Position numbers and translations under genes: made by a program. 34,164 nucleotides of DNA, taken from NCBI GenBank assembly GCA_013154235.1, contig JAADCV010000031.1, forward strand, positions 1 to 34,164, written 5' to 3'. The notes under the pieces were generated by a model. The model saw only the letters and a program-made list of their open reading frames with translations. It did not search any database and was not told the DNA's origin. This DNA comes from Thermoproteota archaeon. Its GTDB lineage: Archaea > Thermoproteota > Thermoprotei_A > Sulfolobales > Ignisphaeraceae. Below are positions 152 through 2,435 of this stretch, in pieces (position 1 is the stretch's first letter; the number at the start of each line of letters is the position of its first letter).

Positions 152-194
152 TGTGTTAGGGCTAGTACTGATAGAGCTAGGTAAGGTGTTTAAA

Positions 195-398
195 GTGTCT
201 AGGGTTATTAAAGCTAGGTATGAGAAGGGTGTGCTAAAGCTACTGGAGCCGGTGCAGCTTAGAGAAGGTGAAGAGGTTCTAGTTAGAATAGAGAGACTTG
301 AGGATAGAAGAAGAATAGTCGAAGAGTTCTATGGGAAACGTGGCTCCGCATCAAAAGAGCTACTTGATGAGTTCATGTTAGAGGCTGAAGCTCAGTGA
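195..398 (+). CDS. vapB: DUF104 / AF2212-like antitoxin (VapB type)
   Basis: This is a 67-residue protein starting MSRVIKARYEKGVLKLLEP, the characteristic opening of the DUF104 (AF2212-like) antitoxin family. A short beta-rich DNA-binding region (VIKARYEKG, EEVLVRIE) is followed by a charged helical tail that should bind the toxin. An in-frame GTG at 153 would add 14 residues foreign to the family. The GTG at 195 has a GGTG-like motif just before it and a TATA-like box at a suitable distance. The stop overlaps the next start (GTGA), so the two genes are translationally coupled. By family knowledge it neutralises the PIN nuclease and represses their shared promoter. DNA target and specificity cannot be read from sequence. 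Confidence 0.85.
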   Translation: MSRVIKARYEKGVLKLLEPVQLREGEEVLVRIERLEDRRRIVEEFYGKRGSASKELLDEFMLEAEAQ

Positions 399-844
399 TA
401 CTCTTAGATACTAATGCTATAGTATACTACCTTCACCGTGTTGAACCTTACGCTTCTAAGGTAAAAGAGATACTAGTTGAAAGAGAAGACATTGCAGTAA
501 CCCTTAGAATTGTTGACGAAGTAGTTTTCACACTCATAAGGCTTGAAGCTTGGAGGAAACTTGGAGTGAGGAAGCTGGAGCAGCTACGGGACTATATAAG
601 GAAGCGTGGTCTAGAAGGATTTAGCGATGCCATAAGCGATTTTGAAGAATTAATAAATAAACTTGGAATATTGGTTCTAGAGGATAAAGGTGATCTCAAA
701 GAGCTTCTAGAAACTATGAGAAGGTATGGTCTTCTACCTGGAGACGCACTAATCGCGGTAACAGCTGAGCACTATGGTATAGATACCATACTTACGTTTG
801 ACGAGGACTTCAAGAGGGTCCCATGGCTCAAAGTAATCCCTTAA
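395..844 (+). CDS. vapC: PIN-domain ribonuclease toxin (VapC type)
   Basis: This 149-residue protein is a PIN domain. The acidic residues expected to hold Mg2+ are present: D5 in LLDTN, E42 in VDEVV, D117 in PGDALIA and D136 in TFDEDF, so it should be catalytically competent. The GTG start overlaps the antitoxin stop by four bases, the standard layout for these pairs. By family it is an Mg2+-dependent endoribonuclease, often cutting tRNA or rRNA, and is held inactive by the upstream antitoxin. It ends 116 bases before tRNA-Arg. Toxin-antitoxin loci are mobile in archaea, so this may mark the edge of an accessory segment. The RNA target is unknown. Confidence 0.9.
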   Translation: MILLDTNAIVYYLHRVEPYASKVKEILVEREDIAVTLRIVDEVVFTLIRLEAWRKLGVRKLEQLRDYIRKRGLEGFSDAISDFEELINKLGILVLEDKGDLKELLETMRRYGLLPGDALIAVTAEHYGIDTILTFDEDFKRVPWLKVIP

Positions 845-960: not shown

Positions 961-1038
<78 letters not shown>

Positions 1039-1083
1039 TCAGCACAGCGGTAGGTATTTAGAGGGTTATAGCTTTGTATAGAT

Positions 1084-1143
1084 GTGGCGTGATGATGGTC
1101 TTGAGTGCTGAGTTCAGTGATGATCCCTAGCGGGTCTGACCTA
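1084..1143 (+). ncRNA. C/D box guide RNA (2'-O-methylation guide)
   Basis: All four boxes are exact and evenly spaced. C box GTGATGA is at 1089-1095, a 12-base guide at 1096-1107, D' box CTGA at 1108-1111, a 5-base spacer, C' box GTGATGA at 1117-1123, a second 12-base guide at 1124-1135, and D box CTGA at 1136-1139. This is the canonical archaeal dual-guide layout bound by L7Ae, Nop5 and fibrillarin. The predicted targets are CACUCAAGACCA (D' guide) and ACCCGCUAGGGA (D guide). Under the N+5 rule, methylation falls on the fifth target base in each. I could not assign these to a known rRNA or tRNA site. The D box ends two bases before the convergent glycosyltransferase stop codon. The transcript ends are estimated, and the terminal stem is weak. 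Confidence 0.85.
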
Positions 1144-2292
1144 TAGGGGAATCGCCTTTAGCGCGGGTGGCACGTTTCTGCTTTTGTTCTCGAGCGCCAT
1201 CCTAATCATTCCGAGCATCTCTCGTGCGAATCTCTCGGGGCTGAAGAACATTGTCTTAGCTCTCACCCTCTTTCGCATCTCCACGATTCTATCGCGAGGC
1301 ATTCTAAGAACCTTTACTATTGCTTCCACGAGCTCTCTGAACCCCGTGTAGACCACCATGTCCTTCTCTGGGCTAAATACTTCCGCTACCCCCGTTGTCG
1401 AGTGCGTAACAACTATAGCTCCCTGACTCATGGCTTCGAGTGGCGCTAGACCAAAGTGCTCACCTATTCTAGCGTGTACATACACCTTCGCTTCTCTGTA
1501 CATGTCTATGAGCTGCCTCCTGCTAGCGTCAACAACTAGCTCTGCATCCTTGGTCTCGTCTATCATTGCTCTCAGCTCCTCGTAGTAGTCTGCAAACCTA
1601 GGATCTCTAGGACCTACAATTACCAGCCTGCTGTTAGGAACGTACTTCTTTACCTCCCTAAACGCTTCCACAACCACCCTATGGTTCTTCTGTGGAACCA
1701 ATCGTCCTACAGTTAGTATAACCGGCTCACGCTCTCTCTCGAGATCTGGCTCCTCCTCTAAGTACTCCCTAGATATGCAGGGGTAGACTATGTTCGCCTC
1801 TATTCCGAACATGCTGTAGAGAGCTCTAGCAGTGTAGAGACTGTTAACTACATGTACGTCGGGGACCCTATACATGACCGGCTCGAATATGGGGAATCGA
1901 TAGAACTTGTAGAACTCTCTAAGCTTCTCCTTGCTAAGCTCTTCCTCTATCGGGAAGTGAATGTATATTACTATGGGGGTTCCTGGCGCAACCACCTTTG
2001 ATGCCACTGCATAGAGGGGTTCGTGAATCATTATCACTACCACGTCCGGCTCGAACTTCTTAATAACCTTATCAAAGGATAGAACCACGTCGCAGAACCT
2101 CTCAGCGACACCCTCCCCAACCCTGCTCTCTATGAACCACGTCTTCGCCGGCAGAGGGTTTCTACCAACATCGCCCGTTAACACACCAACGTCTATACCC
2201 ATCTCAACGAACTGCCTAACCAGATGCCTCGTAAGCTCCTCACTACCACCAACAACCGATAGATGAGGATGCACCACTAGTACCTTCAGCAA
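1141..2292 (-). CDS. GT4-family glycosyltransferase, Alg11/PimA-like
   Basis: This is a GT-B fold glycosyltransferase of about 383 residues. The N-terminal half opens KVLVVHPHLSVVGGSEE, typical of GT4 enzymes that transfer a sugar from a nucleotide-sugar donor. The C-terminal half has the donor-binding segment VGRLVPQKNH and the motif GEHFGLAPLEAMSQGAIVV, containing the conserved EX7E glutamates. The YIHFP and GEHFG segments recall Alg11-type mannosyltransferases of N-glycan or dolichol-linked oligosaccharide synthesis, but donor and acceptor cannot be fixed. A TTG at 2292 has AGGTG six bases before it and gives the usual MLKVLVVHPHL start. A GTG at 2301 is the alternative. There is no signal peptide or membrane segment, so a cytosolic membrane-associated role is inferred. 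It stands alone, convergent with the C/D guide RNA. Confidence 0.9.
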   Translation of the reverse strand: MLKVLVVHPHLSVVGGSEELTRHLVRQFVEMGIDVGVLTGDVGRNPLPAKTWFIESRVGEGVAERFCDVVLSFDKVIKKFEPDVVVIMIHEPLYAVASKVVAPGTPIVIYIHFPIEEELSKEKLREFYKFYRFPIFEPVMYRVPDVHVVNSLYTARALYSMFGIEANIVYPCISREYLEEEPDLEREREPVILTVGRLVPQKNHRVVVEAFREVKKYVPNSRLVIVGPRDPRFADYYEELRAMIDETKDAELVVDASRRQLIDMYREAKVYVHARIGEHFGLAPLEAMSQGAIVVTHSTTGVAEVFSPEKDMVVYTGFRELVEAIVKVLRMPRDRIVEMRKRVRAKTMFFSPERFAREMLGMIRMALENKSRNVPPALKAIPL

Positions 2293-2435
2293 CGCAAGCA
2301 CCTACGAAACATAGCATTGCTAGGATTTTAGCTGTAGTGAAGGAGCTGTAGGCAACCAGATCAAACTCCCATCCAGCTCTAGACCCATCTCTGCAGTAAC
2401 CTGTACATGTACCCGATCCCAGCAACTGCTCTGCG

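Follow-up and report, generated by a model that had tools for sequence, protein, structure and literature searches.

Box C/D sRNAs predicted to aim at position 34 of tRNA-Leu(CAA) have been described in Pyrococcus (PMC7994747, PMC7668247). The methylation of C34 in this tRNA is therefore a predicted one, yet it was not detected among the tRNAs of P. furiosus which were analysed (PMC7668247). In a review of Pyrobaculum data, the sRNAs which target tRNAs usually have one guide without target, and archaeal C/D sRNAs are reported to occur as circles (PMC7994747). Circular rearrangement and mobility of modules are also known for archaeal sRNAs (PMC4644070): in Mka sR88, whose targets lie in rRNA, the two guides are repositioned relative to its relatives sR39/119, following a duplication within one genome.

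We studied a gene of this kind in a window (the whole stretch of 34,164 nucleotides which was analysed) from the MAG of a Thermoproteota archaeon. It is very probable, in our judgement, that this gene codes for a box C/D sRNA whose D' guide is directed at C34 of tRNA-Leu(CAA), whose D guide is likely an orphan and whose two modules have been swapped. Its box architecture, its target tRNA and the nucleotide at +5 are the same as in the Pyrococcus guides for Cm34, while the archaeal order is different and the guide stands here at D', the comparison covering architecture and target position. As in Mka sR88, the two guides are repositioned relative to the relatives. Unlike Mka sR88, the sRNA of the window carries a tRNA guide and is present in one copy, and the rearrangement lies between genera.

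The sRNA gene and its surroundings

A complete C-D'-C'-D array can be read directly at 1089-1139 on the forward strand, and it occurs only once in the window (Table 1). The initial annotation had reported two exact GTGATGA boxes, two exact CTGA boxes, guides of 12 bases and an internal spacer of 5 bases, in a non-coding gap of 102 bases between a tRNA-Arg gene and a convergent glycosyltransferase gene; direct reading gave the same boxes and lengths, and the same gap (1038 to 1141). Between box D and the stop codon of the glycosyltransferase on the other strand there is a single base (1140). Only this neighbour is convergent with the sRNA, as the tRNA-Arg gene points away from it. Further upstream, at 153-844 (+), one can notice two overlapping frames, the first for an AF2212-like protein of antitoxin type and the second for a PIN-domain protein, that is, a VapBC-like toxin-antitoxin pair.

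Table 1. Positions, in the window, of the elements of the sRNA gene and of its neighbours.
Feature	Positions	Strand	Remarks
Box C	1089-1095	+	GTGATGA, exact; same in congener G002
D' guide TGGTCTTGAGTG, 12 nt	1096-1107	+	pairs with tRNA-Leu(CAA) 31-40; guide and box in 106/197 genomes
Box D'	1108-1111	+	CTGA, exact
D'-C' spacer, 5 nt	1112-1116	+	GTTCA; TCT in congener G002
Box C'	1117-1123	+	GTGATGA, exact; same in congener G002
D guide TCCCTAGCGGGT, 12 nt	1124-1135	+	probably orphan; best candidate tRNA-Leu 38-46
Box D	1136-1139	+	CTGA, exact
tRNA-Arg(CCG), divergent neighbour of the sRNA	961-1038	-	ARAGORN and Rfam
Family-4-type glycosyltransferase, convergent neighbour of the sRNA	1141-2301	-	ORF; Pfam PF00534
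Possible overlapping divergent promoters	1056-1072		TATA-like A+T-rich letters at suitable distances
Possible promoter element of the sRNA, TATTTAG	1056-1062	+	letters and distance only
Possible promoter element of tRNA-Arg, GCTATAAC	1065-1072	-	letters and distance only

The pattern TGATGA-N8-14-CTGA-N1-14-TGATGA occurs once in the window and in none of 100 shuffles, and the only matches in the window to RTGATGA-N12-CTGA, with at most one mismatch allowed, are the two halves of the sRNA, both of them exact. In the whole MAG, the C-D'-C' pattern is found at 57 sites and its reversed control at none. The element has what is expected of an archaeal box C/D sRNA, that is, four boxes in order, a 5-nt spacer, guides of 12 and 12 nt and, for the D' guide, a complement of at least 9 nt in a stable RNA (the tRNA-Leu(CAA) of relatives) with the target nucleotide 5 nt from the box. 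The comparison with Rfam reveals a weak likeness to several archaeal C/D families, the best being sR5 (E 0.00026), and no match to any C/D family at the gathering score: sR5 (RF01304), sR23 and sR9 are alike in boxes and spacing, but their guides are different and the sRNA stays far under their gathering scores (25 against 40 bits for sR5). The folding of the 60-mer is not more stable than that of shuffles (z 1.03), as is expected for a guide RNA.

One could imagine that the boxes were arranged by chance within an intergenic gap. However, zero such arrangements are expected from both the reversed pattern in the genome and the shuffled window, the guide and the boxes are kept in a congener despite changed flanks, and the guide is conserved across the order (see below); a chance arrangement is thus extremely improbable. 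The element at 1089-1139 is an ordinary archaeal box C/D sRNA, one of a rich and normal complement, and the genomic excess of such sites together with the conservation of the guide bears out what the initial annotation had proposed. Elsewhere in the same genome, at G000:C14:24817-24897 (-) (loci L010-L012), four C-guide-D units stand back to back, each CTGA being followed by the next RTGATGA after 2-3 bases; they form either two dual-guide sRNAs placed back to back or one four-guide RNA.

The D' guide and the wobble base C34

The D' guide GGUCUUGAGU forms 9 Watson-Crick pairs and 1 G-U pair with positions 31-40 of tRNA-Leu(CAA), a pairing which was computed on the tRNAs of relatives, as the MAG is 79% complete and its own gene is absent from the assembly (the tRNA-Leu genes (CAG), (UAA) and (UAG) were found in it, (CAA) was not). 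With the tRNA of the same family, the guide positions 2-11 upstream of D' are engaged, G31 forming a wobble pair with U and C32-C40 Watson-Crick pairs, while guide positions 1 and 12 are left unpaired; the energy is -17.0 kcal/mol and the shuffle p of the nine-pair run is 0.0023. Base 1103, the fifth upstream of D', lies opposite the wobble base C34, exactly as the box D'+5 rule has it. The anticodon region reads CTCAAG in 10/10 genes of relatives, and the anticodon arm of the mature tRNA is GCGGG CUCAAGA CCCGC in G005, G006 and G008, which belong to the same family.

If G-U pairs are counted, the D' guide also pairs over 10 positions with tRNA-Leu (UAA, UAG, CAG) and with tRNA-Ser(CGA) (shuffle p 0.06). 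A G-U pair on the target base, which would arise with tRNA-Leu(UAA), is expected to make a poor substrate. Among the 20 LSU and 20 SSU rRNAs scanned, no conserved match of the quality of tRNA-Leu(CAA) was found for this guide.

The initial annotation could not place the targets of the two guides and suggested that the site might be an uncommon one. As regards the D' guide this was mistaken, since C34 of tRNA-Leu(CAA) is not an uncommon target, sRNAs for it having been predicted in Pyrococcus before (PMC7994747, PMC7668247). The annotation had also taken the 12-base targets too literally, the actual pairing being at guide positions 2-11. In the organism's own genome, where it had suggested a search, the exact 12-base targets gave nothing but self-matches in the tRNA loci, and the rRNA genes are absent from the assembly. 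It had named as a refutation that neither guide complements a stable RNA over at least 9 bases; this does not hold, for the D' guide forms 9 contiguous Watson-Crick pairs with the tRNA-Leu(CAA) of relatives.

Conservation and probable exchange of the guide modules

A neighbouring protein has 83% identity to one encoded in the MAG JALWBS010000173.1 (Desulfurococcales archaeon); as no other named record holds a close relative, the organism is assigned, by NCBI name, to Desulfurococcales. In the congener G002 (contig C173), the sRNA lies between the same neighbours, tRNA-Arg and the glycosyltransferase. In the alignment of the two, box C, the first guide, D', C' and D are identical and the second guide differs at four positions, while the spacer and the flanks have diverged; boxes and guide kept amid changed flanks are the pattern of selection expected of a guide RNA. 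A match with one mismatch in another congener, G001, was rejected as an sRNA because it has no C boxes.

The 15-mer GGTCTTGAGTRCTGA, which joins guide and box, is present in 106/197 genomes of the order, against 1/197 for the reversed control. Most of the occurrences which we read have recognisable C/D boxes around them, the exceptions being L248, L249, L286 and the second hit of L178. In this family of sRNAs (GGTCTTGAGTR-CTGA, 106 genomes), the tRNA-Leu guide and the adjacent CTGA are identical to those of the window, but in the relatives this guide precedes box D, often together with degenerate C' and D' boxes, whereas in the window and in G002 it stands before D' and all four boxes are perfect.

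No C'-guide-D module comes after the tRNA-Leu guide in 91 of the 93 occurrences which we read, a frequency which is biased because the search required an exact CTGA and swapped copies with a degenerate D' would be missed. In most of these 91, the guide precedes box D and stands behind a partner guide which follows box C; among the 93, the opposite order, with this guide before D' and the partner before D, is seen in the window and G002 alone. In several members of the sister genus, the partner guides have AGCGG as a core, placed in the same register, as in ACATTTAGCGGGG-TTGA and GCTCAGCGGTG-TTGA. Given this shared core, the simplest explanation is an exchange of places between the two modules of a single gene. 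A circular rearrangement is the most likely mechanism of the swap; it would be enough for the gene to be duplicated in tandem and then to lose its outer halves. The same genome does contain the four-unit back-to-back array mentioned above. None of the other loci scanned in the same family adjoins tRNA-Arg. Hence, the gene has probably also moved.

Several other features of the family can be mentioned. Many families of the order have partner guides with a conserved start CTCGG (L164, L166, L170, L171, L175, L177 and others), often followed by CYGAG at D', so that a small hairpin is possible (GCTCGGC-ATC-GCCGAGC in L177); in the genomes tested, guides of this type gave no rRNA target. One and the same 3' flank, TCACAAAGCRTGAT, follows box D across families of the order (L163, L178 and L235, with variants in L216 and L248); it may belong to the end of a convergent gene which they share. 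In G004 the tRNA-Leu guide occurs twice: L286 has the 3' flank of L289 but lacks both C box and partner guide, and seems to be a duplicate of the gene which was truncated.

The D guide

The best match of the D guide is to tRNA-Leu 38-46, in the 3' side of the anticodon stem and the start of the variable loop, with G42 as the predicted nucleotide and a shuffle p of 0.03-0.08 or, in the wider range, 0.03-0.14; it covers 9 contiguous positions of ACCCGCUGG, 7 of them Watson-Crick and 2 counting G-U. It could be argued that both guides act on tRNA-Leu, D' at C34 and D at 38-46, one after the other since both would occupy 38-40. In favour of this are the nine contiguous positions of the window guide and the D guide of the congener, which keeps AGCGGG and retains 8 of the pairs, both its transitions at positions 8-9 still pairing with G. 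However, the shuffle p is hardly convincing, the partner guides of other relatives do not keep the pairing, and we know of no Gm42 among methylation sites, so that we find a double action on this tRNA quite unlikely. Highly doubtful is the most elaborate form of the idea, that of a circularly permuted sRNA with both guides on one anticodon arm (Cm34 and Gm42), in which the permutation restored four perfect boxes and a former orphan guide became a second guide for tRNA-Leu.

A lineage-specific site in 23S or 16S rRNA is another conceivable target, all the more since no rRNA genes were found in the MAGs of this genus. Two LSUs of the same family contain GCCCGTTAGGG, with which the window guide forms 11 contiguous pairs including two G-U, but this sequence is mismatched to the D guide of the congener, and no site in the rRNA of relatives pairs well with the D guides of both congeners. 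Moreover, the partner guides are variable inside the sister genus, and those of relatives share no common site when compared with their own LSU and SSU. We therefore consider an rRNA target unlikely. A further candidate, CCCGCUGGGG in the 23S of relatives, was rejected, as the match is on the antisense strand.

Most likely, the D guide is an orphan; if it touches the anticodon stem of tRNA-Leu at all, this second contact would be a weak one. This follows from the unconvincing p, from the pairing which is not kept elsewhere and from the rule drawn from Pyrobaculum, where tRNA-directed sRNAs usually have one target-less guide (PMC7994747). The term "dual-guide" used in the initial annotation thus describes the anatomy correctly, with its two guide slots, but hardly the function, as the D guide lacks a convincing target.

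Discussion

The search with Pfam of the 79% complete MAG returned neither fibrillarin (PF01269) nor Nop (PF01798). The genes of fibrillarin and Nop5 are adjacent in many archaea, so that, at this completeness, a single gap in the assembly could explain both absences. A genuine lack of the two proteins is very unlikely given the 57 sites of C/D type.

We infer from these comparisons the following course of events. The gene would be transcribed into a box C/D sRNA of about 51-60 nt, on the two C/D kink-turns of which L7Ae, Nop5 and fibrillarin would assemble. The D' guide would then pair with positions 31-40 of tRNA-Leu(CAA), in its anticodon arm, and fibrillarin would 2'-O-methylate the wobble base C34, the resulting Cm34 favouring, presumably, a strict decoding of UUG. 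The guide modules would have been exchanged in this genus relative to the ancestral gene.

With this reading, a guide RNA which was not annotated receives a concrete target. Across an entire order of archaea, the guide for C34 of tRNA-Leu(CAA) is strongly conserved while its partner drifts, and the swap of the guides in one genus would be a clean case of modular rearrangement in an sRNA whose tRNA target is conserved.
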